A stretch of 64,000 nucleotides of DNA from Pelagibius marinus (GCF_014925385.1 NZ_JACSDK010000009.1:124001-188000), one strand, 5' to 3'. Numbered from the stretch's first letter, positions 15,349 to 45,374 are shown. Made by a program: numbers and translations. Notes: generated by a model not told the origin, from the sequence alone.

Positions 15349-15454
15349 ACCTCAAGAATGCCCCAGGGTCCTGAAGCTTTCGTTAACGATTGTGCGAAGA
15401 CAGCGCAAATTCAATTTACGCGCAGGTTGCCCTGCAGCGCCGGGCGCGGCCGCG

Positions 15455-15742: not shown

Positions 15743-16133
15743 AAGGGCCTGCCTTCTTGTGGGGCGGGCGAGGCTTTGTTGAGTATCGCAGCGCGCCGGC
15801 GGCGATCAACGATTCCGCCTGTGGCATCGCGTGTGAAAAAAGGGGCATCACCGGCCCGTATCCATAGGAATTATTACCGTTACCACCTCCCGGCCCGACC
15901 GTGGAGCAGCAGTACCGTCGCGGCGGCATGTTGCGCAATAGCATATAACCCGCTGCTTTACATGATAAATTCTGACAACCCGGCCACAACTCCCTGACCA
16001 TCCGCGGCTTCGGAATCGGCCCGCCACACCCCAGAAAGGTCACGGCACACCATAGTCATCCGGCGTAGAACCTTTACTAAGCATTAATCAATTGGGCGTA
16101 ACCCAGAGGTTAAGCTTGGTTAGGAACCGGTAA
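15743..16133. other. 391-base intergenic region, no gene seen
   Basis: The stretch is lower in GC than its surroundings. It contains CATGATAAATT at 15961-15971, the same 11-mer seen twice in the dppA-DUF1028 intergenic region, though here without palindromic flanks. The last 50 bases should hold the promoter and ribosome site (TAGGAA at 16121-16126) of the histidine kinase. I find no tRNA, hairpin terminator or convincing small gene. Confidence 0.5.
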
Positions 16134-30475: not shown

Positions 30476-30874
30476 ATGAGCGAGAAACAAGCCGCAACGG
30501 CCTTGCCGGAAACCCCCGATACCGCACCCGACCATCGGCCGGGATGGTTCGCCGCGGGCGGCGTCGTCGGGGCGGTCCTCGCCTCCGCCTGCTGCATCCT
30601 TCCCCTTGTCCTGCTGTTTCTCGGCGTTTCCGGCGCCTGGATCGGAAACCTGACCGCTTTGCAGCCCTTCAAGCCCTATTTCGCGATTGTGGCGCTGGTC
30701 TTTGTCGGCCTCGGGTTCCGGCAGGTCTACTTCCGGCCCGCCGCAGGCTGCGCCGAGGGGACCCACTGCAGCCGGCCCCGGTCCTCCGTGATCGTCAAAC
30801 CGGCGCTCTGGATCGCAACCCTGCTGGTAGCGTCGGCGCTGACCGTCAACTGGTGGGCGCCGCTGTTCTACTGA
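30476..30874 (+). CDS. merT: Mercuric ion transport protein MerT
   Basis: This 132-residue inner-membrane protein has three membrane segments. The mercury-binding cysteine pair in the first is ASACCILP (Cys39, Cys40), and a second pair lies in the loop after segment two (Cys92, Cys98 in GCAEGTHCSRP). MerT passes Hg(II) from MerP into the cytoplasm. ATG 30476 is the first start after the mer promoter, about 25 bases beyond the predicted transcript start. merP follows 25 bases downstream. Confidence 0.9.
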   Translation: MSEKQAATALPETPDTAPDHRPGWFAAGGVVGAVLASACCILPLVLLFLGVSGAWIGNLTALQPFKPYFAIVALVFVGLGFRQVYFRPAAGCAEGTHCSRPRSSVIVKPALWIATLLVASALTVNWWAPLFY

Positions 30875-30899
30875 CCTCACTCTTTGGAGCAAACCGCTG

Positions 30900-31229
30900 A
30901 TGAAGTTTTCCCTCTCTCGCCTCGCCGGCTTTCTCCTTCTCGCGACGATCGGGCTTCACATGGGCGCCCCCCTCCCGCCGGCAGCGGCCCAGTCCGCCGG
31001 CGGCCAGGCAACTCTCCAAAGCGTCACCTTCACCGTCGACAACATGTTCTGCGCGCTCTGCCCCGTTACCGTCCGCAAGGCGATGGAGGGCGTGGAGGGC
31101 GTCAGTTCGGTCGAGATCGACTTCGAGGCCAAGACGGCCTTCGTCACCTTCGATCCGGCCATCACCACAGCCGCATCGATTGCCGCCGCTTCGAGCGATG
31201 CCGGTTATCCGGCCCGGCCGGGAAGCTGA
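30900..31229 (+). CDS. merP: Periplasmic mercury-binding protein MerP
   Basis: This 109-residue protein has a signal peptide (about 1-30) and one HMA-type metal-binding domain. The motif is NMFCALCPVTVRKAM (Cys51, Cys54), against GMTCAACPITVKKAI in classical MerP. The beta-alpha-beta pattern continues with VSSVEIDFEAKTAFVTFDP. It should bind Hg(II) in the periplasm and hand it to MerT. It is second in the merT-merP-GDCC unit. Confidence 0.9.
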   Translation: MKFSLSRLAGFLLLATIGLHMGAPLPPAAAQSAGGQATLQSVTFTVDNMFCALCPVTVRKAMEGVEGVSSVEIDFEAKTAFVTFDPAITTAASIAAASSDAGYPARPGS

Positions 31230-31254
31230 CCGGAAGACGGCGGGAAGCCCGATC

Positions 31255-31521: not shown

Positions 31522-32478
31522 TTACTCGTAGGTGCGGGCGCTGAGCGGCTTGGCGTCGATGGCCTCGCGCAGGGCCTGCAGCAGGCCGGCCTCGGCGCGG
31601 TTCAGGTGGGTCTGGGGGTTCCATACCAGGTAGATATCCACCGCCGGCGGGTTTTCGTAGGGCGGCAGGCGCCACAGCAGGCCGTCGCGCAGGTCGCGCG
31701 CTACCACGTGGATCGGCAGCGGCCCGATGCCGAGCCCGGCGATGATCATCCGCCGCACCTCCTCCAGGTGGGAGGAGTGGCCGACCACCCAGTCGTCGAG
31801 GTCGTGCTGGGCGCGCAACAGGGCGACGGGACGCAGGGCGTCGGCCAGCTGGTCGGTCTTGAAGGAGACGGAGGCGTGGCCCTTCAGGTCGGTGAGGCTG
31901 AGGCCCTCGCGCCCGAACAGCGGGTGCGGCGGGCCGCAGAAGAAACCGAAGTGCTCGCGGTAGATCATCTTGTAGTCGAGGCGCGGCGAGCGCTTGTGCA
32001 CCAGGCAGAGCCCGAAACTGGCCGACTTCTCCAGCACCGCGCGGGTCACCTCGGCGGAGGTATCGACCTCGATCTCGTAGGTCGCCTTGGGGTTCTCGGC
32101 ATGGAAGGCGGCCAGCACCTCGTCGAAGATCGGCGAGATCACGTGGCTGGCCATGGCGATGCGCACATGGCCGGTGATCTCGTCCTTCACGTCGCGGGTC
32201 AGCACCGCCACCCGGGCGACGTTGCCGTAGATCTCGACGCACTCCTTATAGAGCACCTCGCCGGCCGGGGTGACGCGGAAGATCGCCGGGCCGCGCTCGA
32301 TGAGGCGCTTGCCGAGGCGGGTTTCCAGACGTTTCAGCGCGTGGCTGACCGTGGGCTGGCGCAGGTAGAGACGCTTGGCGGCGCCGGTGACGCTGCCTTC
32401 CTGCACCACCACCATGAAGGTGCGCAGCAGATTCCAGTCCAGTTCCCGGGCCAGGCGTTCGCCGCTTTCCTGAAGCAT
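31522..32478 (-). CDS. LysR-family transcription regulator
   Basis: The product is 318 residues from ATG 32478, preceded by a strong AAGGAGG. The N-terminal LysR helix-turn-helix reads DWNLLRTFMVVVQEGSVTGA, then LRQPTVSHALKRLETRLGKR and LFERG-like LIERGPAIFRVTPAG. The rest is the two-lobed effector domain. The gene is divergent from the amine-transport/catabolic operon (from 32886). The two ATAG-N7-CTAT sites (32500-32536) just upstream of its start fit autoregulation plus control of that operon, the normal LysR arrangement. The effector is probably an intermediate of that pathway. Confidence 0.9.
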   Translation of the reverse strand: MLQESGERLARELDWNLLRTFMVVVQEGSVTGAAKRLYLRQPTVSHALKRLETRLGKRLIERGPAIFRVTPAGEVLYKECVEIYGNVARVAVLTRDVKDEITGHVRIAMASHVISPIFDEVLAAFHAENPKATYEIEVDTSAEVTRAVLEKSASFGLCLVHKRSPRLDYKMIYREHFGFFCGPPHPLFGREGLSLTDLKGHASVSFKTDQLADALRPVALLRAQHDLDDWVVGHSSHLEEVRRMIIAGLGIGPLPIHVVARDLRDGLLWRLPPYENPPAVDIYLVWNPQTHLNRAEAGLLQALREAIDAKPLSARTYE

Positions 32479-32496
32479 TCCGGCCTCCTTGGGGCA

Positions 32497-32517
32497 GTCA
32501 TAGATGTCATCTATGAC
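32497..32517. promoter_or_regulatory. LysR-type operator 1 (perfect dyad)
   Basis: GTCATAGAT (32497-32505), three bases, then ATCTATGAC (32509-32517) form a perfect 9-bp inverted repeat containing the LysR T-N11-A signature and ATAG-N7-CTAT. It lies 19 bases upstream of the regulator's ATG, where the bound protein would cover its own promoter. Confidence 0.7.
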
Positions 32518-32521
32518 CAGC

Positions 32522-32536
32522 ATAGCACTTATCTAT
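32522..32536. promoter_or_regulatory. LysR-type operator 2 (half-site spacing repeat)
   Basis: ATAG (32522-32525)-N7-CTAT (32533-32536) repeats the core of operator 1 exactly 22 bases on, so both lie on the same DNA face. Paired strong and weak sites are typical of LysR recognition and activation sites. Confidence 0.6.
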
Positions 32537-32606: not shown

Positions 32607-32872
32607 AGCCCGGATTTCTCAAACCATCGCGGGCGTCACGGAGGCGAATTTGCTGACAGGCCAGAAAAGACGCGAAGAGCGTATCGGCAATACGGTCGAG
32701 CGGCTTGACGCCGCCTGTCAGCAAATTCGCCCCGCCCTTCGGGTCGCCTCAGGAAGCCCGCACGCTGCGTCGAAGCCCTCAACCGTAGTCCCTGCTACGC
32801 TTTTCGGGCTTCTCCTATCGAGCGGGCTTCCTGAGGCGATGACGCTCCACGATGGTTTGAGAAGTCCGGGCT
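32607..32872. repeat. Nested palindromic repeat element, about 266 bp
   Basis: Outer arms 32607-32629 and 32850-32872 are inverted copies with two mismatches. Inside lie two side-by-side perfect 17-bp inverted repeats: GCGAATTTGCTGACAGG (32644-32660) with its complement at 32714-32730, and CGCCTCAGGAAGCCCGC (32745-32761) with its complement at 32822-32838. The second of these encloses GAAGCCC/GGGCTTC (32772-32778, 32806-32812) and CGTAG/CTACG. It codes for no protein. It could be a MITE or REP-like mobile repeat, or fold as RNA. It fills most of the gap between the LysR operators and the first permease gene. Confidence 0.75.
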
Positions 32873-32885
32873 AGGTTCAGATTTC

Positions 32886-33767
32886 ATGGCAGCAGTAGCA
32901 GCGGACGCGGACGCGCCGGGGCCCCGCCCCTGGCTGCTCATGTCGCCGGCCCTGACCGCGGTGGTCCTGCTGCTGGCCGTGCCGCTGTGCTTCATCCTGG
33001 TCTATTCCTTCTGGCTGCGCACCGCCGCCGGCGGCGAGCAGGTCGGCTTCTTCCTCGACAACTGGGCCGAGGTGCTGAGCGACGAGTTCTACCGCGACAT
33101 CCTGTTCCAGACCCTGCGCATCGCCGGCCTCTCGACCGTCGTCTGCATCCTGCTGGGCTACATTCCGGCCTACTTCATCGCTCGCTCGACGACGCGCCAC
33201 AAGGCGGCGCTGATCCTGCTGCTCATGCTGCCCTTCTGGATCAGCTACATCATCCGCACCATGTCGTGGATCAACATCCTGGGGGTCAGCGGCGCGCTGA
33301 ACGTCTTCCTCTTGTGGACCGGCATCATCTCGGAGCCGCTGCAGATCCTCTACAACGAGGCCACGGTGATCCTGGGGCTGGTGCACTTCCTGCTGCCCTT
33401 CATGATCCTCAACATCTACGTCAGCATCGACGGCATCGACACCAACCTGGCCGACGCCGCGCGCTCGCTGGGCGCCACCGGCTGGCAGACCTTCCGCGAG
33501 GTGACCCTGCCGTTGTCGATGCCCGGCCTGGCCGCCGGCAGCCTGCTCTGCTTCGTCCTCGGCGCCGGCACCTACATCACGCCGATGATCCTGGGCGGAC
33601 CGCGCAACGCCATGTTCGCCAACCTGGTCTTCGAGGCCATCATCACCCAGCTCAACTGGCCGCTGGGCTCGGCCCTGTCGCTGGTCTTGCTCGTCGTCCT
33701 CGGCGCCGTGGTGGTGGTCTACACCCGCTACGCCGGCATCGGCCAGCTCGCCAAGAGTTTCAAGTGA
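32886..33767 (+). CDS. Spermidine/putrescine-type ABC permease (PotB-like)
   Basis: This 293-residue inner-membrane protein has six membrane segments. The coupling loop is ADAARSLGATGWQTFREVTL, the EAA motif of this family. The N-terminal loop LTAVVLLLAVPLCFILVYSF and the FWISYIIRTMSW stretch are typical of PotB. It is the first gene of the nine-gene unit, and its ATG lies 14 bases past the right arm of the palindromic element. The next permease follows after 8 bases. Likely cargo is a polyamine or related amine. Confidence 0.9.
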   Translation: MAAVAADADAPGPRPWLLMSPALTAVVLLLAVPLCFILVYSFWLRTAAGGEQVGFFLDNWAEVLSDEFYRDILFQTLRIAGLSTVVCILLGYIPAYFIARSTTRHKAALILLLMLPFWISYIIRTMSWINILGVSGALNVFLLWTGIISEPLQILYNEATVILGLVHFLLPFMILNIYVSIDGIDTNLADAARSLGATGWQTFREVTLPLSMPGLAAGSLLCFVLGAGTYITPMILGGPRNAMFANLVFEAIITQLNWPLGSALSLVLLVVLGAVVVVYTRYAGIGQLAKSFK

Positions 33768-33775
33768 GGCCGGCC

Positions 33776-34570
33776 ATGAACATCTTCAGCAGCTGGAGCC
33801 TGATCCGCGCCTTCACCGTCCTGGTCTACCTCTTCATGTTCCTGCCGGTGGCGGTGGTCATCCTGCTGGCCTTCAACGCCAACCAGTTCGGCAGCTTTCC
33901 CATGGAGGGCGTCAGCTTCCGCTGGTTCATCGAACTGTGGCACAACGACGCCATCGTGCGCGCCTTCAAGACCTCGATGCTGCTGGGGGCACTGACCGCG
34001 GTGATCTCCGCCACGCTGGGCGTGCTCGCGAGCCTCGCCCTGGTGCGCTACGACTTCCGCGCCAAGAGCCTGATCACTACCGCCCTGATCGCGCCGATCC
34101 TGGTGCCGGAGGTGGTGCTGGCCGTCGCGCTGCTGCTGTTCCTGCGCTGGCTGGAGATGCCGAAGAGCTTTCCGCTGCTGCTGCTCGGCCACGTGATCTT
34201 CACCCTGCCCTTCGTGGTGCTGATCGTGCAGGCCCGCCTGGTGGCGGTGCGCCGCGAGTTCGAGGAAGCCGCGCTCAGCCTGGGCGCCAACGCCTTTCAC
34301 ACCTTCCGCGAGGTGACCTTGCCGCTGATCATGCCGGCGGTCTTCGCCGGCATCATCTTCGCCTTCACGATTTCCTTCGACGACGTCACCGGCACCCTGT
34401 TCTGGAAGCCGGGCGGCGTCGAGACGGTCCCCACGCAGATCTTCGCCATGCTGCGCAACTCCATAAGCCCGGAAATCAATGCGCTGGGCGCGGTGATGGT
34501 GGTGATCACCGTGGCGGTGCCCCTGCTGGGCGTCGCCATCGCCCGGCGCATGGCCGCCGCGCTCCGATAA
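33776..34570 (+). CDS. Spermidine/putrescine-type ABC permease (PotC-like)
   Basis: The product is 264 residues from ATG 33776; the longer frame to the left is a shadow of the first permease. It has six membrane segments and the coupling loop EEAALSLGANAFHTFREVTL. The middle ILVPEVVLAVALLLFLRWL and the ISFDDVTGTLFW stretch near the end match PotC. It pairs with the PotB-like protein to form the channel. Confidence 0.9.
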   Translation: MNIFSSWSLIRAFTVLVYLFMFLPVAVVILLAFNANQFGSFPMEGVSFRWFIELWHNDAIVRAFKTSMLLGALTAVISATLGVLASLALVRYDFRAKSLITTALIAPILVPEVVLAVALLLFLRWLEMPKSFPLLLLGHVIFTLPFVVLIVQARLVAVRREFEEAALSLGANAFHTFREVTLPLIMPAVFAGIIFAFTISFDDVTGTLFWKPGGVETVPTQIFAMLRNSISPEINALGAVMVVITVAVPLLGVAIARRMAAALR

Positions 34571-34637
34571 CAAGATATGCAGACCGATAACAACGAACCG
34601 CAAACCCACGAACACCAGACAGGGAAAGGTATGGGAG

Positions 34638-35792
34638 ATGGATAACACCACTCGCTATCAACGACTTCTCGAACGTTACCGCAACGGCGACCTCGACCGC
34701 CGCACCTTCCTCACGCTCTTGGGCGCCGCCAGCCTCACCGCCGGGCTGACCGGCGCGCCGCTGAAGGGACTGCAGCGACAGGCCATGGCCGCCACGCCGG
34801 AGAGCGTGCGCTTCGACGGCTGGGGCGGCGTCGTCTCCGAAGCCTTCCGCAAGCACGCCTTCGACCCCTATACCGAGAAGACCGGCATCAAGGTCGTCGA
34901 CGGCACCTTCGGCAGCGGCGACGAATACCTGAACCGCGTGAAGGCCGGCCAGGAAGGCGAATACAACATCTTCCACGCCTCCGGCGTCTTCGACTATGCC
35001 CGCTACGTGAACCTGGGCTACGACGTGGTGCTCAACGAGGCCAACATTCCGAACCTGAAGTACGTGATGTCGGCCCTGATGACGCCCTTCCGCGGCGTCA
35101 CCGGCGGCAAGCTCTCCGCCGCGCCCTACGACTACGGCACCACGGGCCTGGCCTACAACACCGAGAAGATCTCCAAGCAGGAGATGGAGGACAAGGGCGC
35201 CAAGATCCTCATCGACCCCAAGTACAAGGGCAAGATCGGCGGTTGGGGCGACTGGCGCACCCGCATCTGGTACGGCGCGCTGGCGACCGATCAGAACCCC
35301 AACAACATCCAGGACATGGACGCCGTCTGGGACGCCATCCGCGCGCACCGCGATCTGGCGCTGAAGTACTGGGGTTCGGGCGCCGAGCTGATGAGCCTGC
35401 TGGCCGAGGGCGAGATCTACGTCACCGAGGGCTGGTCGGGCCGCATCGCCGCGCTGCAGCAGCAGGGCCATCCCATCGCCTACTACGACGCGCCCAACAG
35501 CTACGCCTGGCAGGAATGCCTCATGGTGCTGAAGGGCAGCCCGCTGGAGGCCTGCGAGGAACTCCTGAACTTCATGCTGGAGCCGTCGGTTTCCATCGCG
35601 GTTGCCGAGGGGCAGAACTATCCCCCTTCGCTCGACCCCACCAAGGTCGACCTGGGCGAGAAGATCCCGACACTGCCGGCCTTCGACCCCACCGGCAAGC
35701 TGGCCAATCTCACCTTCGCGGATCCGGCCTACTGGAACGGCAACGAGGCGGAGTGGTCGAAGAAGTTCGGCCGCGTGCAGAAGGGCTACTGA
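34638..35792 (+). CDS. Polyamine-type ABC substrate-binding protein (PotD-like)
   Basis: In this 384-residue protein the N terminus DLDRRTFLTLLGAASLTAG, followed by AMA-A, looks like a Tat-type signal (DRRTFL), so it may be exported folded. The mature protein has the PotD fold: VRFDGWGGVVSEAFRK, YTEKTGIKVVDGTFGSGDEY, AAPYDYGTTGLAYNTEKI and VTEGWSGRIAALQQQG. The binding-site aromatic and acidic residues that hold polyamines cannot be placed without alignment. It follows the second permease by 67 bases and is followed by a strong hairpin. Confidence 0.88.
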   Translation: MDNTTRYQRLLERYRNGDLDRRTFLTLLGAASLTAGLTGAPLKGLQRQAMAATPESVRFDGWGGVVSEAFRKHAFDPYTEKTGIKVVDGTFGSGDEYLNRVKAGQEGEYNIFHASGVFDYARYVNLGYDVVLNEANIPNLKYVMSALMTPFRGVTGGKLSAAPYDYGTTGLAYNTEKISKQEMEDKGAKILIDPKYKGKIGGWGDWRTRIWYGALATDQNPNNIQDMDAVWDAIRAHRDLALKYWGSGAELMSLLAEGEIYVTEGWSGRIAALQQQGHPIAYYDAPNSYAWQECLMVLKGSPLEACEELLNFMLEPSVSIAVAEGQNYPPSLDPTKVDLGEKIPTLPAFDPTGKLANLTFADPAYWNGNEAEWSKKFGRVQKGY

Positions 35793-35812
35793 CCCGATTG
35801 GGTTATTGGGCC

Positions 35813-35850
35813 GCGGCGGGCCGGCCCTCCCCCGGCCCGCCGCACCTTTT
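35813..35850 (+). terminator. Strong hairpin after the binding-protein gene
   Basis: GCGGCGGGCCGG (35813-35824) and CCGGCCCGCCGC (35832-35843) form a perfect 12-bp stem with a 7-base loop, followed by ACCTTTT. It lies inside the operon, between the binding protein and its ATPase, where partial termination or 3' protection would raise the binding protein over the downstream enzymes. Confidence 0.65.
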
Positions 35851-35875
35851 CGTGCAAGAACCGGAGTAACCTCTG

Positions 35876-36970
35876 ATGAGCGATCGCGAGCCCGTCGTCG
35901 CACTGCGCCAGGTGATCAAGCGCTACGGCAATTTCACGGCGGTCGAGCCGATGGACCTGAACGTCGAGCCGGGCGCCTTCGTGACCCTGCTGGGCCCCTC
36001 GGGCTGCGGCAAGACGACGACCCTGCGCATGGTCGCCGGCCTGGCCGCCCCCAGCGGAGGCGACATCCTCATCAAGGGGTCTCGGGTCAACGAGGTGCCG
36101 ATCCACAAGCGTAACCTGGGCATCGTGTTCCAGAACTACGCCCTCTTCCCGCACAAGAACATTTTCGACAACGTCGCCTTCGGCCTGAAGTACCGCAAGG
36201 TGCCCAAGGCGGAGATCGCCGAGCGGGTCGCCCGCGCGCTGGAGCTGGTCCAGCTGCCGCAGATGGCCGACCGCTTCCCCAACCAGCTCTCCGGCGGCCA
36301 GCAGCAGCGCATCGCACTGGCCCGCGCCATCGTGGTGGAGCCCGACGTGCTGCTGCTCGACGAGCCGCTCTCGGCGCTGGACGCCAACCTGCGCGAGGAC
36401 ATGCGCGTCGAGCTGAAGAAAATTCAGCACCAGCTGGGCATCACCACCATCTTCGTCACCCATGACCAGTCGGAAGCCCTGGCCATGTCCGACAAGATCG
36501 TGGTTATGAACAAGGGCCGCATCGAGCAGGAGGGCTCGCCCGAGGAGGTTTACGCGCGCCCGCGTTCCGAGTTCGTCGCCCGCTTCCTGGGCAACTCCAA
36601 CCTGCTGGACGGCACCATCACCGCGCACAACGGCAGCAGCCTCAGCGTCGAGGTCGGCGGCCTGGGCCAGGTCGAAGCGGACGCGAACGGCGCCGCCGTG
36701 CCGCAGGACGGCCAGCCGGTGCGCCTGGTGGTGCGCGCGGAAAAGCTGCACCTCTCCACCGAGCCCAGTGGCGAGCCCGGCGCCACCCGGATGAACGGCC
36801 GCGTCGACACCGTTGACTACCAGGGACAGGCGGCCCGATATTTCGTGACCGTCGGCGCCCACAGCCTTCAGGTGATCAACCCGATCGACAGCCGCCCCTT
36901 CGCCGAGGGCGCCGAGGTCTGCGTGCATGTCCGGCCGCGGGACATCGTGCTGCTGACGCCCGAAGCCTGA
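35876..36970 (+). CDS. Spermidine/putrescine-type ABC ATPase (PotA-like)
   Basis: This 364-residue protein has Walker A GPSGCGKTT, Q loop FQNYALFPHKNIFDN, signature LSGGQQQR, Walker B LLLDEPLSALD and the switch His in VTHDQSEAL. The C-terminal TOBE domain (about 285-360) ends VCVHVRPRDIVLLTP. The ATG at 35876 follows GGAGTAAC. It energises the two permeases above. The aminotransferase starts 8 bases later, tying transport to catabolism in one transcript. Confidence 0.93.
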   Translation: MSDREPVVALRQVIKRYGNFTAVEPMDLNVEPGAFVTLLGPSGCGKTTTLRMVAGLAAPSGGDILIKGSRVNEVPIHKRNLGIVFQNYALFPHKNIFDNVAFGLKYRKVPKAEIAERVARALELVQLPQMADRFPNQLSGGQQQRIALARAIVVEPDVLLLDEPLSALDANLREDMRVELKKIQHQLGITTIFVTHDQSEALAMSDKIVVMNKGRIEQEGSPEEVYARPRSEFVARFLGNSNLLDGTITAHNGSSLSVEVGGLGQVEADANGAAVPQDGQPVRLVVRAEKLHLSTEPSGEPGATRMNGRVDTVDYQGQAARYFVTVGAHSLQVINPIDSRPFAEGAEVCVHVRPRDIVLLTPEA

Positions 36971-36978
36971 GTGACGAC

Positions 36979-38400
36979 TTGGCGACAAGAGAACAACCCT
37001 TGGGGACCACTGCCCTTATGACCGCCACCACCGCGCCCGCAGCCCAGACCCGCGAGCCCTCCAACCTCTTCTACCAGACACGCAACCGCCGCCCGGTCGT
37101 GGCGCGCGCCGAGGGCATCTATTTCTGGGACAAGGACGGCAGGCGCTACATCGACGGCTCCAGCGGCGCCATGGTGGCCAACATCGGCCACAGCAACCCG
37201 CGGGTCCTGGCCGCCATGCGCCGCCAGATGGAAGAGACCACCTTTGCCTACCGCCTGCACTTCGAGAACGAGGCGGCGGAGACCCTGGCCAAGCGCATCG
37301 CCCAGCGCGCGCCGCAGGGCCTGGACCGCATCTTCTTCGTCTCCGGCGGCTCGGAGGCCGTGGAGTCCTGCCTGAAGCTGGCCCGCCAGCACGCCGTGGC
37401 GACGGGCCAGGAAAAGCGCTGGAAGGTGATCTCGCGCTTTCCCTCCTACCACGGCGCGACCCTGGGCGCCCTGGCCGTCACCGGCTACACGCCGATGACC
37501 GCGCCCTTCGCGCCGATGATGCAGGAGATGCCCAAGATCCCGGCGCCGACCTGCTACCTGGACCGCGACAACCTGGACTGGGAGGCGCGCGGCCTGCGCT
37601 ATGCGGAGATGCTGCGCGAGGAGATCGAGCGCCAGGGGCCGGAGAGCGTGCTGGCCTTCATCATGGAGCCGGTGGGCGGCGCCTCGACCGGTGCCCTGGT
37701 CGCCCCCGACAGCTACTACGCGCGCGTCCGCGAGATCTGCGACGACTACGGCATCCTGCTGATTCTCGACGAGGTGATGAGCGGCGTCGGGCGTACCGGG
37801 CGCTTCCTCGCCTCCGAGCACTGGGACCTGCGCCCCGACATCATCGCCCTCTCCAAGGGCTTCGCCGCCGGCTATGCGCCGCTGGGCGCCATGGTCGCCG
37901 ACCGCCGCCTGGTGGAACCGGTGCTGGACGCCGGCGGCTTCATCCACGGCTACACCTACGCCGGCAACCCGCTGGCCTGCGCCGCCGGCCTGGCGGTGCT
38001 GGAGGAGATCGAAAGCCAGGACCTGATGGGCAACGCCACGCGCATGGGCGGTCTGCTGAAGGGCGGCCTCTGCCGCCTGATGGCGCGCTTCCCCTTCATC
38101 GGCGACGTGCGCGGCCTCGGCCTGCTGCTGGCCTTCGAGATGGTGGCCGACCGCCAGACCATGCAGCCGCTGCCCAAGGGGCTGAACGCCCACAGCCGCC
38201 TGGTGGATCTGGCCTACGAGCGCGGGCTGATCATCTATTCGCGGCGCACCCGAGGCGGCATTGAAGGCGACCACTTCCTGGTCTGCCCGCCGATGATCGT
38301 CGACGAAGCCCAGGTCGGCGAGATCCTGGGCCTGCTGGAAGAAAGCCTCGTCGCCTTCGCCGCCGAGGCCGGCCTGCCCGTTTCCAACAGCGCCGCGTGA
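36979..38400 (+). CDS. Class III aminotransferase (omega- or beta-amine type)
   Basis: This 473-residue PLP enzyme starts at a non-ATG codon at 36979, or at ATG 37018 (MTATTAPAA). Motifs are the phosphate-binding SGGSEAVESCLKLARQ, SYHGATLGALAVTG, the Asp holding the ring in LLILDEVMSGVGRTG, the Schiff-base Lys in ALSKGFAAGYAPLGA, and GYTYAGNPLACAAGLAV. This group includes beta-alanine:pyruvate, putrescine:pyruvate and taurine aminotransferases. Coupling to BKACE by a 4-base overlap suggests its product is a beta-keto acid; the exact substrate is inferred, not seen. Confidence 0.87.
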   Translation: MATREQPLGTTALMTATTAPAAQTREPSNLFYQTRNRRPVVARAEGIYFWDKDGRRYIDGSSGAMVANIGHSNPRVLAAMRRQMEETTFAYRLHFENEAAETLAKRIAQRAPQGLDRIFFVSGGSEAVESCLKLARQHAVATGQEKRWKVISRFPSYHGATLGALAVTGYTPMTAPFAPMMQEMPKIPAPTCYLDRDNLDWEARGLRYAEMLREEIERQGPESVLAFIMEPVGGASTGALVAPDSYYARVREICDDYGILLILDEVMSGVGRTGRFLASEHWDLRPDIIALSKGFAAGYAPLGAMVADRRLVEPVLDAGGFIHGYTYAGNPLACAAGLAVLEEIESQDLMGNATRMGGLLKGGLCRLMARFPFIGDVRGLGLLLAFEMVADRQTMQPLPKGLNAHSRLVDLAYERGLIIYSRRTRGGIEGDHFLVCPPMIVDEAQVGEILGLLEESLVAFAAEAGLPVSNSAA

Positions 38401-39341
38401 GCCCGACCATGGCCAACAACAAAGTCATCATCACCTGCGCGGTCACCGGCTCGATCCACACGCCGAGCATGAGTCCGCACCTGCCGGTTACCCCGGACGA
38501 GATCGCCGCCGGCGCGGTGGCCGCCGCCGAGGCCGGCGCGGCGATCCTGCACCTGCACGCCCGCCACCCCGAGGACGGCCGCCCCTCGGCCGACCCGGCC
38601 CACTTCATGGCCTTCCTGCCGCGCATCAAGCAGGCCTGCGACGCCGTGGTGAACATCACCACCGGCGGCAGCGCCCAGATGACCCTGGACGAGCGCCTGG
38701 CCGCGCCGCTGCAGGCCCAGCCGGAGATGTGCTCGCTGAACATGGGCTCCATGAACTTCGGCACCTTTCCACTGCTTGAGCGCTACGACGACTGGAAGCA
38801 CGACTGGGAGCCCGGCTTCCTGGAAGCCTCGCGCGATACCGTCTTCAAGAACACCTTCGCCGACATCGAGGGCGTGCTCGACCGCCTGGGCAACGGCTGC
38901 GGCACCCGCTTCGAGTTCGAGTGCTACGACAGCGGCCACATCCAGACCGTCGCCTTCTACCTGGCCCAAGGCCTGATCAAGCCGCCGGTCTTCCTGCAGT
39001 TCGTGCTCGGCGTGCTGGGCGGCGCCGACGCCTCGCCGGAGCAGCTCATGCACATGAAGGCGACGGCCGACCGCCTGCTGGGCGAGGCCTACCGCTTCTC
39101 CGTCCTGGCCGCCGGGCGTCAGCAGATGCCGCTTGGCACCCTGGGCGTCATCCTGGGCGGCAACGTGCGCGTCGGCCTGGAAGACAGCCTCAGCATCGGG
39201 CGCGGCCGGCTCGCCGAGAGCAACGCCCAGCAGGTGGAGAAGATCCGCCGCATCCTGGAAGAGCTGGGCTACGAGGCCGCCAGGCCGGACGAGGTGCGCG
39301 AGACCCTGGAGCTCAAGGGCGGCGACCGGGTGTCCTTCTGA
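38397..39341 (+). CDS. Beta-keto acid cleavage enzyme (BKACE, DUF849)
   Basis: This 314-residue protein starts at GTG 38397 inside the aminotransferase stop (GTGA); ATG 38409 is the alternative. It matches the Kce/BKACE family: VIITCAVTGSIHTPSMSPHL, the zinc-binding ILHLHARHPEDGRPS (His52, His54), NITTGGS and GGNVRVGLEDSL. The family condenses a beta-keto acid with acetyl-CoA to give acetoacetate and a shortened acyl-CoA; the founding member acts on 3-keto-5-aminohexanoate in lysine fermentation. Pocket residues set the substrate and would need modelling. It overlaps the next gene by one base. Confidence 0.9.
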   Translation: MSPTMANNKVIITCAVTGSIHTPSMSPHLPVTPDEIAAGAVAAAEAGAAILHLHARHPEDGRPSADPAHFMAFLPRIKQACDAVVNITTGGSAQMTLDERLAAPLQAQPEMCSLNMGSMNFGTFPLLERYDDWKHDWEPGFLEASRDTVFKNTFADIEGVLDRLGNGCGTRFEFECYDSGHIQTVAFYLAQGLIKPPVFLQFVLGVLGGADASPEQLMHMKATADRLLGEAYRFSVLAAGRQQMPLGTLGVILGGNVRVGLEDSLSIGRGRLAESNAQQVEKIRRILEELGYEAARPDEVRETLELKGGDRVSF

Positions 39342-39841
39342 TGGCCGAGATCAGCGTACGTCTGGCCGGCAAGGCCGACGCGCAGGCGGTCTACGGCTTG
39401 GTCGTGGAACTGGGGCGCGCAAGAGGCATGCCGGAAAAGGTGGTCTCCAGCGTCGCCGACATCGAGCGCGACGGCTTCGGCGACGACCCGGCCTTCGAGG
39501 CGCTCATCGCCGAGGTGGACGGCAAGCCGGCCGGGCTCTGCCTCTTCTTCGGCAGCTATTCCACCTGGCGCGGCCGGCGCGGCATCTATGTGCAGGACCT
39601 GGTGGTCCTGGAGAGCGCCCGCTCCCTGGGTCTCGGCCGCCGCCTGCTGGCCGAGGTGGCCGCACTGGCAAAGGCGCGGGGCGCCGCCTACCTCAGACTT
39701 TCCGTCGACGACGACAATCTTGGCGCCCAGCGCTTCTACCAGCGCACGGGCCTCAGGCATTCCACGCCGGAGCAGATCTACGTGCTGGAAGACGACGCGC
39801 TCGACGCCCTGGCCGAAAGCGCGAAAGGAGCGTCGGCATGA
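39341..39841 (+). CDS. GNAT-family N-acetyltransferase
   Basis: This 166-residue protein has the GNAT fold: SVRLAGKADAQAVYGLV at the start, the central VQDLVVLESARSLGLGRRLL with the acetyl-CoA pyrophosphate loop (R-S-L-G-L-G), and RFYQRTGLRHS near the end. It is similar in layout to diamine/polyamine N-acetyltransferases (SSAT type), but I cannot assign the substrate with certainty. The start ATG 39341 overlaps the BKACE stop (TGATG), and its own stop overlaps the amidohydrolase start. It thus lies in the same message as an enzyme expected to remove acetyl groups. Confidence 0.82.
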   Translation: MAEISVRLAGKADAQAVYGLVVELGRARGMPEKVVSSVADIERDGFGDDPAFEALIAEVDGKPAGLCLFFGSYSTWRGRRGIYVQDLVVLESARSLGLGRRLLAEVAALAKARGAAYLRLSVDDDNLGAQRFYQRTGLRHSTPEQIYVLEDDALDALAESAKGASA

Positions 39842-40875
39842 AGGTATTCTCCGCGCCTGAGCGGCAGAAGATTCACTACCCGCGCAATTTCCTGGTCAAC
39901 GGCGCGCCGCAGCCGAACCCGGAAGTGCCGGAGCGCGTCGACCGCCTGTTGCAGGCCGCGAGCGCCGGCGGCCACGACATCGCCGCGCCCGCCGACCACG
40001 GCCTCGGCCCCATCGCCGCCGTCCACACGCCGGAGTACCTCCGCTTCCTGGAGCACATCTACGAACGCTGGGCGCGCATCCCCGGTGCTTCCGAAGAGGT
40101 CATCCCCAACATCCACCCGGACCGCCGCGAGGCCAGCTACCCGCTCTCCGCCGTGGGCCAGGCCGGCTACCACATGGCTGACACCGCCTGCCCCATCGGC
40201 CCCGACTCCTGGGCGGCGATTCGCTGGAGCGCCAACTGCGCCGCCTCGGCCGCCGAAGCGGTGCTGGGCGGCGCGCCGGCCGCCTATGCGCTCTGCCGCC
40301 CGCCCGGGCACCACGCCTTCACCGACCTGGCCGGCGGCTTCTGCTTCGTCAACAACGCCGCCGTGGCCGCCATGGTGCTGCGGCAGAAACACGCCCGCGT
40401 CGCCATCGTCGACGTCGACCTGCACCACGGCAACGGCACCCAGGGCATCTTCTACCGGCGCGACGACGTGCTGACCGTCTCGGTCCATGCCGACCCGATC
40501 CGCTTCTACCCCTTCTTCTGGGGCCACGCGCATGAGCGCGGCGAGGGCGCGGGGACCGGCTATAACCTGAACCTGCCGCTGCCGCGCGGTTCGGAAGACG
40601 CGGCCTTCCTGGAGGCCCTCAACCGCGGCCTGGAAACGGTCGCCGCCTTCGCCCCCGGCGCCCTGGTGGTGGCGCTCGGCCTCGACGCCTTCGAGGGCGA
40701 TCCCTTCGGCGGCCTCGCGGTCAGCACCGAAGGCTTCAGCAGGATCGGCGCGCGCCTGGCCGGGCTCGGCCTGCCCAGTATCGTGATCCAGGAAGGCGGC
40801 TACCTCTGCGACGCCCTGGGTGATAACCTCGCCGCCTTCCTCGGCGGCTTCGAAGCCGATCACAAGACAAACTAG
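39838..40875 (+). CDS. Acetylpolyamine amidohydrolase (HDAC family)
   Basis: This 345-residue protein belongs to the arginase/deacetylase superfamily. The active-site residues are in place: RPPGHHA with His158 and His159, zinc ligands in DVDLHHGNG (Asp194, His196), Asp283 in GLDAFEGDP, and the catalytic Tyr322 in EGGY. Apart from the His pair these numbers are one less than those I recall for the Mycoplana ramosa acetylpolyamine amidohydrolase, and the loop HADPIRFYPFFWG is also typical of that group. It should hydrolyse N-acetylated amines to the free amine and acetate in the cytoplasm. It starts within the GNAT stop (ATGA). Confidence 0.88.
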   Translation: MKVFSAPERQKIHYPRNFLVNGAPQPNPEVPERVDRLLQAASAGGHDIAAPADHGLGPIAAVHTPEYLRFLEHIYERWARIPGASEEVIPNIHPDRREASYPLSAVGQAGYHMADTACPIGPDSWAAIRWSANCAASAAEAVLGGAPAAYALCRPPGHHAFTDLAGGFCFVNNAAVAAMVLRQKHARVAIVDVDLHHGNGTQGIFYRRDDVLTVSVHADPIRFYPFFWGHAHERGEGAGTGYNLNLPLPRGSEDAAFLEALNRGLETVAAFAPGALVVALGLDAFEGDPFGGLAVSTEGFSRIGARLAGLGLPSIVIQEGGYLCDALGDNLAAFLGGFEADHKTN

Positions 40876-40880
40876 AATCC

Positions 40881-41984
40881 ATGACGCAGACGGCAGACGT
40901 GATTGTCATCGGCGCCGGCATGGCCGGAGCCTCGGCGGCGGCGGAGATGACCCGCGGCGCCAAGGTGGTGGTGCTGGAGAGCGAGCCCCACCCCGGCTAC
41001 CACAGCACCGGGCGCTCGGCGGCCATCTTCATCCAGAGCTACGGCAACGCCGCCGTGCGGCAGTTGAACCGGGCGAGCCGCCCGCTGCTGGAAGCGCATC
41101 CCTTCGACCCGGAGGGCGCCGGCGTGCTGTCGCCGCGCGGCATCCTGACGCTGGCCGGCGCGGACGAGACCGCTCACCTCGACGCCCTGCTGGCGGAAAA
41201 TCCCGGCGTCGAGGAGATACCCCCTGACGAAGCGGTCGAGATGGTGCCGATCCTGCGCCGCGCGGCCATCGAACGCGCCGCCTTCGAGGCCGACGCCCTG
41301 GACATCGACGTCGACCGCCTGCACCAGCTCTACCTGCGCCACCTGAAACAGGCGGGCGGCAGCCTGGTCTGCAACGCCGGGGTCACCGGGCTCACCCGCG
41401 ACGGCGGGGTGTGGCGCGCCGAAACCCGCGCCGGCGTCTTCGAGGCGCCGCTGGTGGTGAACGCCGCCGGGGCCTGGGCCGACCTGACCGCCGCCATGGC
41501 CGGCGTCGAGCCGCTGGGCCTCCGGCCGCTGCGCCGCTCCGCCGCCATCCTGCCGGCCCCGCCGGGCCACGCGGTCGAGCGCTGGCCCCTGGCCGGCAAC
41601 GCGGCCGAGACCTATTACTTCAAGCCGGAGGCCGGGAAGCTGATGGTCTCGCCGGCCGACGAAACGCCGGTCGACCCGCACGACGCCTGGCCCGACGACA
41701 TGGACCTGGCCGAGGGCCTGGACCGCTTCGCCCGGGCCGTCGACTACGAGGTGACGCGCGTCGAGCGAACCTGGGCGGGCCTCAGGACCTTCGCGCCCGA
41801 CCGCGCCCTGGTGATCGGCTTCGATCCCACGGCCGAGGGCTTCTTCTGGCTGGCCGGACAGGGCGGCTACGGCATCCAGACCGCCCCCGGCGCGGCGCGC
41901 CTGGCCGCCGGCCTGCTGCTGGAGGAGACGGCGCCGACCGGGATCGACCCCGCCCCCTTGAGCCCGGCGCGTTTCCGGGACTAG
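40881..41984 (+). CDS. FAD-dependent amine/amino-acid oxidoreductase (DAO family)
   Basis: This 367-residue protein has the dinucleotide fold at the N terminus (DVIVIGAGMAGASAAAEM), the DAO-type GYHSTGRSAAIF stretch, a second FAD contact VVNAAGAWADLTA, and the C-terminal GFFWLAGQGGYGIQTAPGAA. The family covers D-amino acid oxidase, sarcosine oxidase and gamma-glutamylputrescine oxidase. It starts 5 bases after the amidohydrolase and is the last gene of the plus-strand unit. It probably oxidises an amine of the pathway to an aldehyde or imine. Its TAG stop overlaps the stop of the convergent aldehyde dehydrogenase (CTAG, 41981-41984). Confidence 0.87.
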   Translation: MTQTADVIVIGAGMAGASAAAEMTRGAKVVVLESEPHPGYHSTGRSAAIFIQSYGNAAVRQLNRASRPLLEAHPFDPEGAGVLSPRGILTLAGADETAHLDALLAENPGVEEIPPDEAVEMVPILRRAAIERAAFEADALDIDVDRLHQLYLRHLKQAGGSLVCNAGVTGLTRDGGVWRAETRAGVFEAPLVVNAAGAWADLTAAMAGVEPLGLRPLRRSAAILPAPPGHAVERWPLAGNAAETYYFKPEAGKLMVSPADETPVDPHDAWPDDMDLAEGLDRFARAVDYEVTRVERTWAGLRTFAPDRALVIGFDPTAEGFFWLAGQGGYGIQTAPGAARLAAGLLLEETAPTGIDPAPLSPARFRD

Positions 41985-43498
41985 ACCGCCATGTCGGCGG
42001 GCAGCACGGCCTCCGGCATGTTCTGGTAGCAGACCGGGCGCAGGAAGCGGCGGATCGACAGGGTGCCCACCGAGGTAGCCCCGAAGTTGGTCGAGGCCGG
42101 ATAGGGTCCGCCGTGCACCATGGCGTCGCAGACCTCCACCCCCGTGGGATAGCCGTTGGCGAGAACGCGGCCGGCCTTGCGTTCCAGGATCGGCATCAGG
42201 GTGCGCGCGTCTTCGGCGTCGCCGTCGTCCATGTGCAGGGTGCAGGTCAGCTGGCCCTGCAGGCTCTTGGCGATCTCCACCACCTCGTCGAAGCCGCTGG
42301 CCGCGACCACCAGGCCGAGCGGGCCGAAGACCTCCTCGCCCAGTTCCTCGTTGGCCAGCCAGTCCTTGCCGGTCGTCGAGAAGAGGTAGGGCGTGGCGTT
42401 GCGCAGGTCGCAGGTGGTGGTCAGCACCTCCTGCACGCCCGCCGCGCCGCTGATCCGGTCACGGCCGCTGCGGTAGGCCTCGGCGATGCCGTCGGTCAGC
42501 ATGGTCTGGGCATCGACCGGCTTCAGCGCTTCGGTGGCCGCGGCCATGAAGGACTGCAGGTCGGGACCGTCGACGGCCACCGCGATGCCCGGATTGGTGC
42601 AGAACTGGCCCGCGCCCATGGTCAGCGAGCCGGCCCAGCCCTGGGCGATGGCCGCGCCGCGCGCCGAAAGCGCCTGGGGCAGCAGGAACATGGGATTGAC
42701 CGAGCCCAGCTCGCCGAAGAAGGGGATCGGCTCCGGGCGCTGGGCGCAGAGGTCGAAGAGCGCGCGCCCGCCGGCCAGCGAGCCGGTGAAACCCACCGCC
42801 TTGATCAGCGGGTGCTGCACCAGGGCCTGGCCGACCGCGCGGTTGCCGCCCTGGATCAGGGAGAAGACGCCGGGATGGACGCCGCAGGCCTTGATCGCCG
42901 CGTCGATGGCCTGGGCCACGATCTCGCCGGTGCCGGGGTGGGCCGAGTGGCCCTTGACCACCACCGGGCAGCCGGCGGCCAGCGCCGCGGCGGTGTCGCC
43001 GCCGGCCACGGAGAAGGCCAGCGGGAAGTTGGAGGCGCCGAAGACGGCGACCGGGCCGATGGGGCGCTGCATGACCCGCAGGTCCGGGCGCGGCAGGGGC
43101 TGGCGGTCGGGCAGGGCCTCGTCATGGCGACGGTCCAGGTAGTCGCCCTTCTCGATGTGGGCGGCGAAGAGCCGGAGCTGGCCGGTGGTACGCCCGCGCT
43201 CGCCCTGCAGGCGCGCCTCGGGCAGGCCGGTTTCCTGGGTGCCGATCTCGGTGATGGCCTCGCCGCGCGCCTCGATCTCGTCGGCGATCTTGTTCAGCAA
43301 GGCGGCGCGTTCGGCGCGGGTCGAGTAGCCGTAGCTCCAGAAGGCCTCCTCGGCGGCCTCGCAGGCGGTGGCGACATCGCCCGGCGTGCCCACCGCGTAG
43401 CTGCGGGCGGGGCCCTGCGCGGGCGAGGTCTCGAAGGTTTTCTCGCCGGCGACCCAGGCGCCGGCAATCAGGTGCTTTCCAGTCAGGGCTAGGCTCAT
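41981..43498 (-). CDS. Aldehyde dehydrogenase, alpha-ketoglutaric semialdehyde dehydrogenase type
   Basis: The product is 505 residues from ATG 43498, preceded by AGGAAG. It is an NAD(P)-dependent ALDH with PVAVFGASNFPLAFSV, cofactor motif KGHSAHPGTGEIVAQ, GFTGSLAGGRALFDL, catalytic Glu in FGELGSVNP and catalytic Cys in GAGQFCTNPG. The HSAHPGT variant and SNFPLAFS are typical of 2,5-dioxopentanoate dehydrogenases used in sugar-acid and hydroxyproline breakdown. Its own promoter should lie in 43499-43616. It may act on an aldehyde from the neighbouring pathway or be unrelated; opposite strand and shared stops give no proof. Confidence 0.88.
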   Translation of the reverse strand: MSLALTGKHLIAGAWVAGEKTFETSPAQGPARSYAVGTPGDVATACEAAEEAFWSYGYSTRAERAALLNKIADEIEARGEAITEIGTQETGLPEARLQGERGRTTGQLRLFAAHIEKGDYLDRRHDEALPDRQPLPRPDLRVMQRPIGPVAVFGASNFPLAFSVAGGDTAAALAAGCPVVVKGHSAHPGTGEIVAQAIDAAIKACGVHPGVFSLIQGGNRAVGQALVQHPLIKAVGFTGSLAGGRALFDLCAQRPEPIPFFGELGSVNPMFLLPQALSARGAAIAQGWAGSLTMGAGQFCTNPGIAVAVDGPDLQSFMAAATEALKPVDAQTMLTDGIAEAYRSGRDRISGAAGVQEVLTTTCDLRNATPYLFSTTGKDWLANEELGEEVFGPLGLVVAASGFDEVVEIAKSLQGQLTCTLHMDDGDAEDARTLMPILERKAGRVLANGYPTGVEVCDAMVHGGPYPASTNFGATSVGTLSIRRFLRPVCYQNMPEAVLPADMAV

Positions 43499-44084: not shown

Positions 44085-45374
44085 TCAGCCCCGGTCGACG
44101 TCGAGGCGCAGGAAGTGCGTGGCGCAGGAGATGCAGGGATCGTAGTTGCGCACCGTCTGCTCGCAGCGGTGCTGCAGCGCCTCGTCCGGCAGGTCCAGGA
44201 AGCCGCCGATGAAGCTGGTCAGGTCCTCCTCGATGCAGGCCTGGTTCTGCGAGGTCGGCGGCACGATGCGCGCCTCGGCGATGGTGCCGTCGCCGTTCAG
44301 GACATAGCGGTGCCACAGCATCCCGCGCGGCGCCTCGGTGGCGGCGAAGCCGACGCCCGCGGCAGGCTCAATGGCCATGGCCGGGCGCTCCGGCTCCTGG
44401 TAGTCGGCGATGATGCGCAGCGCCTCCTCGACCGCGTGCAGCGCCTCGACGGCGCGCACCACGATGCTCTGGTAGGGATTGCGGCAGACCTCGCCCAGGC
44501 CCGCCTCGCGCGCCGCCTGCTGCACCGCCGGCGACAGCTTGTCGAAATTCAGGCTGTAGCGCGCCAGCGGGCCGACCAGGTAGGCGCCGCCGTCGGTCAT
44601 GCGCGACTGCAGCGCCGTGGAGTGCGCCACATGGATTTCCCCGAAGTGGTCGTCGTAGTCCGCCGCGGCGATATCGAGGCCGCGGTTGGAGACGATATGG
44701 CCTTCGTTGAAGGGGTATTCGTCGGGGTGACGCAGGGAGACGAAGGTGTAGTCGCGCTCGCGGTCGGGGAAGTCGAAGCCGGCGACCCAGCGCAGCGTCT
44801 CCAGCGCCTGGTCGCGGGCCCGCTTCAGTGTCTCGGCCAGGGGCGCGAGCTCGCGCCGCCGCGGGGCACGGTAGAAGCCGCCGACGCGCACGTTGATCGG
44901 ATGGATCTCGCGCCCGCCCAGCAGGGTCAGGATGTCGTTGCCGGCCTTCTTCAGCGCCAGGCCGCGCCTGACCGCCTCGCCGTGATCGCGCGCCATGTCG
45001 ATGCCGCCCTGGTAGCCCAGGAAGTCCGGCGCGTGCAGCATGGTGACGTGCAGCACGTGGCTCTCGATCCACTCGCCGCAGTACAGCAGGCGGCGCAGTT
45101 CGCGCAGGGGGCCGTCGACGGTGATGCCCAGGGCGTTTTCCACCGCGTGCACCGCGCTCATCTGGTAGGCGACGGGACAGATGCCGCAGATGCGCGCGAC
45201 GATGTCGGAGAGCTCGTCGATGGAGCGCCCGCGCAGGAAGGCCTCGAAGAAGCGCGGCGGCTCGAAGATGCGCAGCTCGGCCTCCTGCACCTTGCCGTCG
45301 CGCACCACCACCTTGAAGGCGCCCTCGCCCTCGACGCGGGCCAGGTAATCGACCTTGATGGTCCTATTTCCCAT
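44085..45374 (-). CDS. Group 3b [NiFe]-hydrogenase large (alpha) subunit
   Basis: This 429-residue protein has the N-terminal [12 protein letters not shown] and the first NiFe-ligand pair in [10 protein letters not shown] (Cys63, Cys66). The second pair lies in DPCISCATH (Cys414, Cys417), followed by nine residues after His420 to be removed by the protease. The length and YHIG-like GYQGGIDMA region fit the cytoplasmic bidirectional NAD(P)-linked hydrogenases (sulfhydrogenase/group 3b). It overlaps the small-subunit gene by 11 bases. It should interconvert H2 and protons with the diaphorase subunits encoded upstream. Confidence 0.92.

Follow-up and report, generated by a model that had tools for sequence, protein, structure and literature searches.

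What compound would be taken up and degraded by a set of genes in which an enzyme for acetylation lies directly beside one for deacetylation? The question is raised by nine consecutive open reading frames on the plus strand (32886-41984) of a 64,000-nucleotide stretch of the Pelagibius marinus genome (GCF_014925385.1 NZ_JACSDK010000009.1:124001-188000), which is referred to here, at its full length, as the window. A first-pass annotation had described these genes as a one-direction operon for a PotBCDA-type ABC transporter, a class III aminotransferase (AT3), a beta-keto acid cleavage enzyme (BKACE), a GNAT N-acetyltransferase, an acetylpolyamine amidohydrolase of the histone deacetylase (HDAC) type and a DAO-family oxidase, and the nine genes and their families are confirmed by open reading frame calls and by Pfam and NCBIfam profiles. 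With a confidence a little better than even, comparison of the genes across genomes suggests that the operon serves to import and break down a beta-amino acid carrying an additional, terminal amine; the best candidates are beta-lysine (3,6-diaminohexanoate) and N6-acetyl-beta-lysine. The logic of the pathway is well supported by this comparison, and a substrate of the beta-lysine type is plausible.

Conservation of the Operon

In a class sample of 289 genomes, each searched with the amidohydrolase, BKACE and AT3, matches were obtained in 86 genomes for the amidohydrolase (1e-40), 62 for BKACE (1e-60) and 24 for AT3 (1e-120), and 71 longer stretches (10-20 kb), including four from the genome of the window itself, were taken around chosen matches. 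The fixed order LysR-type regulator, both permeases, binding protein, ATPase, AT3, BKACE, amidohydrolase and DAO-family enzyme is found in at least seven of the 289 genomes (the window's own together with G041, G080, G105, G168, G257, and G265), a figure obtained from neighbouring pairs in the match lists and then from gene order, with contig breaks that may conceal more. The order of aminotransferase, BKACE, GNAT and amidohydrolase, which the first-pass annotation had proposed as a check, is kept in these genomes, but the GNAT lies between BKACE and the amidohydrolase in only four of the seven full operons. The AT3-BKACE group is a minority arrangement: where a genome has the amidohydrolase or BKACE, the two are usually not adjacent. 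Judged by its conserved order, the operon is nonetheless genuine and more than a chance neighbourhood.

Exchange of the Cleavage Enzyme and the Deacylase

The strongest evidence for this reading comes from variation in the genes that accompany AT3. GTDB contigs were scanned with an alignment of 13 AT3s, and the best 80 of 536 relatives (43 genera) are here called the named loci; partner genes were counted within 8 kb of AT3. BKACE is the cleavage partner in 41 of these loci and the A and B pair of a 3-oxoacid CoA-transferase in 28, no locus has both, and 11 have neither. Fodinicurvata fenggangensis DSM 21160 (L124) is a carrier of the BKACE type and a Ruegeria pomeroyi strain (L202) one of the CoA-transferase type. 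The deacylase is likewise exchanged, the HDAC type being present in 41 loci, an M20 type in 31 and both in one, so that an N-deacylase of either unrelated family is found in 71 of the 80. M20 enzymes occur in all 28 CoA-transferase loci and the HDAC type in 38 of the 41 BKACE loci, and a thiolase is present in 20 named loci, including 19 of those with the CoA-transferase. At L206, the sole locus tested in this way, the CoA-transferase subunits score over 3-oxoacid CoA-transferase cut-offs and the thiolase over that for acetyl-CoA C-acyltransferase. Directly after AT3, BKACE is found at 54 of 59 loci and CtfA at 31 of 32, counts that pool overlapping named, plasmid and class-sample sets (L064 and L169, for example, are the same sequence). 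Among the 24 AT3 loci of the class sample, 14 have BKACE, three the CoA-transferase and seven neither, and 17 of the 18 loci whose AT3 is at least 60% identical carry one or the other; the 14 BKACE loci comprise seven with the HDAC type, three with M20 and four without either. On a quick AT3 tree of 110 rows the minimum number of changes is at least five for BKACE/CoA-transferase, at least six for HDAC/M20 and at least 17 for the GNAT, the tree coming from a short search in which 33 of 106 inner branches have support below 80%, a weakness that tells against the reading built on these counts.

Because two unrelated cleavage routes that are never found together replace each other behind AT3, the product of AT3 is likely, and on this comparison strongly implied, to be a beta-keto acid; because two unrelated N-deacylases are also swapped, N-acyl hydrolysis is likely to be a core step. 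With one aminotransferase kept and two cleavage chemistries and two deacylases exchanged around it, these operons amount to a natural experiment in how the pathway is put together. The sequence first proposed, in which transamination yields a beta-keto acid that is then cleaved, gains support from the BKACE/CoA-transferase exchange. The first-pass annotation had also stated that homologous clusters lacking BKACE or the GNAT as a rule would speak against it; BKACE is absent from 39 of the 80 named loci, yet in 28 of those it is replaced.

Several loci stand apart. A TRAP transporter of the DctP type lies near AT3 in place of an ABC system at L131, L132, L143, L144, and L157. The record for L199 is titled Bacillus subtilis and carries a proteobacterial cluster with an AT3 that is 68% identical; mislabelling of the record or contamination of the assembly is probable. 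At L209 (Rhizobium sp. CB3171 plasmid), the match of a 'hypothetical protein' at 15369-15770 to BKACE is confined to a short stretch.

Proposed Route and Its Substrate

In the route proposed here, the ABC system would import beta-lysine or N6-acetyl-beta-lysine, and the GNAT would acetylate a free terminal amine, preventing the later keto acid from cyclising, a step that would be dispensable where the imported compound is already acetylated. AT3 would then transfer the amine at the beta position to an acceptor keto acid, yielding what is presumably 6-acetamido-3-oxohexanoate, and BKACE, whose reaction type is given by its family, would take this putative substrate and acetyl-CoA to acetoacetate and 4-acetamidobutyryl-CoA. 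The HDAC-type enzyme, alone or with a thioesterase, would strip the acetyl group to leave 4-aminobutyrate (GABA). No thioesterase for this step was seen in the window; one of the 4HBT type, a family assignment taken from the L204 copy, lies near AT3 in nine of the 80 named loci. GABA transaminase and succinate-semialdehyde dehydrogenase, encoded elsewhere in the genome, would complete the route, and the window's own genome does hold a GABA transaminase gene (GabT, 604 bits) adjoining one for succinate-semialdehyde dehydrogenase (699 bits) at C16:11262-13972, both over cut-off.

The alternative that survives best keeps this chemistry and changes the substrate to another beta-amino acid whose amine is N-acylated or can be acylated (e.g., beta-ornithine, 3,5-diaminohexanoate, or hydroxy-beta-lysine), perhaps freed from an amide conjugate by accessory amidohydrolases. 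The logic of aminotransferase, cleavage and deacylation is substrate-neutral, and the accessory hydrolases vary with lineage: a DMFase-like gene is found in nine named loci, a HipO-like M20 in six, and a creatininase-family amidohydrolase in 15, of which 14 are of the CoA-transferase type (16 loci overall, e.g., L161 7061-7852). Such variation hints that the imported form may be an amide conjugate that is opened first. We regard another substrate as unlikely while giving it real weight; the names of the GNAT's relatives refer to lysine-like or diamine substrates, and beta-lysine and N6-acetyl-beta-lysine are the commonest known natural compounds of the type. N6-acetyl-beta-lysine is described as an osmolyte of methanogens in PMC1224877.

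Proposed Acetylation and Deacetylation

Among solved structures, the nearest to the window GNAT are 2FE7 ('probable N-acetyltransferase') and 12JC (thialysine acetyltransferase), at 84-85 bits, followed by SSAT2 (2BEI) at 67; 12JC and 2FE7 are also the top solved matches of a second GNAT type, found at L204, the comparison covering these two of three types (the third is that of L067). Acetyltransferases of the 12JC/2FE7/SSAT2 type act on the terminal amines of lysine-like compounds. At 84-85 bits, the window GNAT can be placed in one family with these thialysine and diamine N-acetyltransferases, though not equated with them as an enzyme.

The GNAT gene lies within 8 kb of AT3 in 32 of the 80 named loci, changes often on the AT3 tree, and is missing from three full operons. 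This pattern would suit a GNAT and an amidohydrolase that stand off the main route and deal with side products or resistance, the imported substrate going unprotected. Such an arrangement is improbable, in that nearly all named loci (71 of 80) keep an N-deacylase, drawn from either of two unrelated families, so that N-acyl hydrolysis looks like a core step even where the GNAT is missing, a gap that import of an acetylated compound explains. Optional occurrence of the GNAT fits uptake of an acetylated compound in some carriers and of the free compound in others. The pairing of acetylation with deacetylation, on which the first-pass annotation had laid stress, therefore keeps the support of the GNAT's kin and of the swapped HDAC and M20 deacylases, but by the annotation's own rule its GNAT half is not general.

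The six amidohydrolase residues named at the outset (His158, His159, Asp194, His196, Asp283, and Tyr322) are all present as numbered, and the metal and catalytic residues of the HDAC-type enzyme are kept in 55 of 55 operon-linked rows. The enzyme is similar over its full length to bacterial acetylpolyamine amidohydrolases (3MEN, 3Q9B, and 6PHR; 352 bits to 3MEN) and shares the six residues with them. Unlike them, it sits in a proposed beta-keto acid pathway, and in sister operons an M20 deacylase takes its place. A comparison for residues specific to the operon-linked amidohydrolases gave weak differences only; on the amidohydrolase tree, a minimum of six changes of the operon label is needed.

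The Transporter and the DauA-Like Dehydrogenase

The PotBCDA designation holds at the level of family. The ATPase scores over the cut-off of the polyamine-type subfamily TIGR01187 (373 vs 355.6 bits), but the equivalog cut-offs are missed for PotB (208 vs 348 bits), PotC (202 vs 326), and PotD (36.5 vs 582), and a fold search with the AF2 model of the binding protein (mean pLDDT 67) yields the fold class only. Transporter type and binding-protein fold would favour a polyamine or diamine operon, in which an (acetyl)polyamine is taken up and deacetylated, a terminal amine is transaminated to an aldehyde and BKACE catalyses an unrelated reaction; so would membership of the acetylpolyamine amidohydrolase family, and class III aminotransferases include polyamine transaminases. 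A polyamine operon is nevertheless very improbable. It leaves unexplained the presence of BKACE or the CoA-transferase, never both, beside AT3 in 69 of the 80 named loci; no glutamine-synthetase-like or aldehyde dehydrogenase cluster was seen among the clusters shared by at least four of 104 loci; and in 37 of the 80 a polar-amino-acid ABC system adjoins AT3 instead.

The last gene of the operon, previously labelled a DAO oxidase, does belong to the DAO family and is better described as encoding a DauA-like dehydrogenase, being similar to D-arginine dehydrogenase DauA (3NYC) at 281 bits over residues 5-365, its full length. The second Arg of DauA and its Tyr each lie in a motif that the window enzyme keeps. 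The position of DauA E87, an acidic side-chain contact, differs: it is I88 in the window enzyme, and in five relatives it is E twice, V twice and Q once. Because this position varies, a cationic specificity is not assured. Speculatively, the dehydrogenase might act on the opposite enantiomer, whose deamination would give the same keto acid, or it might recycle the alanine that AT3 forms from pyruvate. A DAO gene is present in seven of the 80 named loci and a RidA gene, within 8 kb of AT3, in two.

The Beta-Keto Acid Cleavage Enzyme

The window BKACE matches PF05853 at 356 bits (cut-off 24.8) over positions 1-274 of 274. It scores below the cut-off of the Kce model NF052387 (245 vs 382 bits) and over that of NF053538 (502 vs 430). 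H48, H50, E171, and E258 are present in the window enzyme and in 59 of 59 operon-linked rows, and R237 in 55 of the 59; the His/His/Glu set H48/H50/E258 is presumably the zinc site. A quick BKACE tree separates the operon rows from 29 non-operon rows, drawn from retrieved loci and including one gene twice, with two label changes, against about 24 on average in shuffles, and the positions typical of the operon group, given as window residues, are S60, S88, F198, V199, and F230. Among the non-operon rows, L089 is operon-like (LysR, the same transporter type, BKACE, and DAO) and is without AT3, the GNAT and the operon-type amidohydrolase; its function may differ from that of the AT3 operons.

Of the characterized enzymes, BKACE15 of Paracoccus denitrificans (8RIO, 8RIP, and 9HNF) is similar to the window BKACE over the full length (371 bits). 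E171 and the His/His/Glu set are kept in the operon BKACEs, which differ from BKACE15 in having F198 and F230 where it has T and W; V at 199 is common to both. From these residues, whose part in specificity at 198 and 230 we infer, the acyl pocket of the operon BKACEs would appear to be changed. PMC11961710 gives E171 as the catalytic base of BKACE15 and beta-ketohexanoate, 3,5-dioxohexanoate and other neutral C5-C6 beta-keto acids as its substrates. By analogy, use of neutral substrates would agree more readily with an acid whose amine is protected as the acetamide than with one whose amine is free. That the operon BKACE itself acts on 3,5-dioxohexanoate or a similar neutral acid, within an operon that degrades a non-nitrogenous or aromatic-derived acid, would agree with the NF053538 score and with the BKACE15 substrates and is very improbable, given that AT3 and the deacylase would have no use, that the operon BKACEs differ at their group-typical positions, including 198 and 230, and that the physiological role of BKACE15 is stated in the same source (PMC11961710) to be unknown.

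Further BKACE genes are present in the window's genome. One, at G000:C15:136521-138658 (L003, L106), adjoins a gene for a class III aminotransferase that is 42% identical to the operon's AT3; a third BKACE gene lies at C9:204564.

Weighing the Beta-Lysine Reading

Several observations weigh against a beta-lysine route or limit what is claimed for it. AT3-type relatives are nearly all in one class (22 of 23 matches among 398 phylum genomes), and the beta-lysine enzymes of Pseudomonas B4, considered below, need not be orthologous to those encoded here. AT3 is without either cleavage enzyme within 8 kb in eight non-truncated named loci (among the 11 with neither, L140, L154, and L200 reach contig ends), or in seven without L199, where CtfB, M20 and thiolase genes lie at 1.6-10 kb; six distant AT3s of the class sample (48-59% identity) stand without any of the partner genes. 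The four class-sample BKACE loci that lack both deacylases within 8 kb all have a DMFase-like gene, and one of the three class-sample CoA-transferase loci is without M20, which the other two have. The restricted occurrence of the GNAT would weaken any claim that intracellular acetylation is essential. NF053538 is named 3,5-dioxohexanoate:acetyl-CoA acetone transferase, after a different acid, and the modelled fold of the binding protein would fit polyamines, opines and GABA alike. Neither the DauA-like gene, for which the first-pass scheme did not account, nor an alanine-racemase-like gene present in six of the 80 loci has an assured place in the pathway. The identity of the substrate is itself something that we infer.

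The source of the substrate bears on the same point. In the host genome (98% complete), lysine 2,3-aminomutase gave no match to TIGR00238 at 1e-30 or to TIGR03822 at 0.001, and the KamA family is not enriched with AT3, being found in six of 24 AT3 genomes vs 92 of 289 overall (over cut-off, three of 24 vs 84 of 289). Endogenous lysine is therefore not implied as the source, and the substrate would be imported; on the same two grounds lysine 2,3-aminomutase was rejected as a genomic partner of the operon. A KamA-family radical SAM gene does lie about 9 kb from AT3 at L209 (3456-4730; 259 bits vs a cut-off of 525) and was not used as support.

Taken as a whole, the first interpretation of the locus is partly supported: comparison favours its logic of cleavage and of acetylation with deacetylation, and its suggested substrate is still the most likely one, but its GNAT part is not general and its scheme leaves the DAO-family enzyme out of account.

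Layout and Surroundings of the Operon

Coordinates are collected in Table 1. The gaps first reported from the ATPase gene onward hold in part. The 1-base overlap of BKACE and GNAT, the 4-base overlap of GNAT and amidohydrolase and the 5-base gap before the DAO-family gene are found, but AT3 has a gap of 8 bases before it, and overlaps BKACE, only with the alternative TTG and GTG starts, and the ATG starts at 37018 and 38409 probably fit the N-termini of relatives better. With the latter, the gaps are 47 bases before AT3 and eight before BKACE.

Table 1. Features of the operon region, in window coordinates.
Feature	Coordinates	Strand	Basis and remarks
LysR-type regulator	31522..32523	-	HTH_1 and LysR_substrate domains; divergent from operon
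ABC permease, PotB-like	32886..33767	+	Profiles; 74-75% identity in six other full operons
ABC permease, PotC-like	33776..34570	+	Profiles; 73-78% identity in six other full operons
Periplasmic binding protein, PotD/PotF/opine-receptor fold	34638..35792	+	Profile and predicted-model fold search; 60-75% identity, eight relatives
Perfect 12-pair GC stem-loop, possible attenuator	35813..35843	+	Between binding protein and ATPase genes
ABC ATPase, PotA family	35876..36970	+	TIGR01187 (see text)
Class III aminotransferase (AT3), proposed N6-acetyl-beta-lysine transaminase	37018..38400	+	Profiles; alternative start TTG 36979
BKACE, proposed 6-acetamido-3-oxohexanoate cleavage	38409..39341	+	Profiles; alternative start GTG 38397
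GNAT N-acetyltransferase, proposed beta-lysine N6-acetyltransferase	39341..39841	+	Profile and solved relatives
Acetylpolyamine-amidohydrolase/HDAC-type deacetylase, proposed 4-acetamidobutyryl(-CoA) deacetylase	39838..40875	+	Profile, catalytic residues
FAD-dependent DauA-like D-amino acid dehydrogenase	40881..41984	+	Profile, 3NYC similarity; in seven full operons

The LysR-type gene is 58-60% identical beside the six other full operons, and 56 of the 80 named loci have a LysR gene no more than 8 kb from AT3; judged by this conserved position, the divergent gene is part of the operon unit and is likely to encode its regulator. The gap between it and the first permease gene is occupied at 32607-32872 by a palindromic element of about 270 bases with nested inverted repeats of 26, 21, and 19 bases, of which the genome has one more near-full copy (C1:13899-14165, 87%); it is possibly a small mobile element in the control region of the operon. 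One terminator-like site was found in the region against a mean of 4.4 in shuffles, and by this count the stem-loop of Table 1 is not significant. Rfam gave no match in the window.

Beyond the operon, an aldehyde dehydrogenase gene (41981-43480, minus strand) ends head-on against it and is followed by one for a [NiFe] hydrogenase-type large subunit (44085-45374, minus strand). Upstream of the LysR gene, at 30500-31230, candidate genes for a MerT-like membrane protein and a MerP-like heavy-metal-binding protein were noted by eye. At 6251-7354 on the minus strand (G000:C9:130251-131354), two separate GABA-transaminase profile matches between them span the greater part of a single class III aminotransferase, which would suggest a split or frame-broken gene.

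Comparison With Known Systems

The anaerobic fermentation of lysine (Kce) offers one parallel, in that a BKACE-type enzyme there cleaves an amino-substituted beta-keto acid derived from a lysine isomer. It differs in that the keto acid is made there by a dehydrogenase, where the route proposed here would use an aminotransferase; the window BKACE, moreover, falls below the Kce cut-off, and the host genome is without a lysine 2,3-aminomutase match.

The degradation of L-beta-lysine by Pseudomonas B4, reportedly worked out by Barker and co-workers in about 1979-1981, is a closer parallel. It is said to proceed by N6-acetylation, transamination to 3-keto-6-acetamidohexanoate and cleavage to 4-acetamidobutyryl-CoA, with deacetylation and thioester hydrolysis reportedly giving 4-aminobutyrate, and its enzymes are said to include N6-acetyl-beta-lysine transaminase (EC 2.6.1.65) and 4-acetamidobutyryl-CoA deacetylase (EC 3.5.1.51). 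Neither EC number is known to have a sequence, the route being reportedly known from enzyme purifications. The remark in the first-pass annotation that no described pathway has this set of genes must be qualified to this extent, as the chemistry matches that reported for Pseudomonas B4. In the Creative Commons-licensed literature of PubMed Central, nothing was found on an aerobic beta-lysine gene cluster; neither EC number was found, the metabolite names appearing only in metabolomics, feeding and fungal work, judged by title; and 'beta-lysine' was not found together with 'acetamidobutyryl', nor were both gene-product names.

Tentatively, and with a confidence that falls somewhat short of even, these operons may be put forward as the first gene set for an aerobic route from beta-lysine or N6-acetyl-beta-lysine. 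They would provide sequences for EC 2.6.1.65 and EC 3.5.1.51, a catabolic acetamidoacyl(-CoA) deacetylase of the HDAC fold, a modular pathway in which BKACE alternates with CoA-transferase/thiolase and the HDAC type with M20, and a place for Alphaproteobacteria as osmolyte consumers. If this is true, marine and soil Alphaproteobacteria (habitats taken from record titles) would consume an osmolyte made by methanogens, giving N6-acetyl-beta-lysine a testable fate, and genes would be given to a catabolic route that is reportedly known only from enzyme purifications. Annotation would be sharpened for proteins now named 'aspartate aminotransferase family', '3-keto-5-aminohexanoate cleavage', and 'histone deacetylase family', and the over-broad BKACE name would be corrected.

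The operon resembles the Pseudomonas B4 route, as reported, in having one fitting gene for each chemical step. It differs in belonging to another bacterial class and in being known from genes alone, the B4 route being known biochemically, and beyond that route it adds an uptake system, a LysR-type regulator and a DauA-like dehydrogenase, together with a cleavage enzyme and a deacylase that are each exchangeable.

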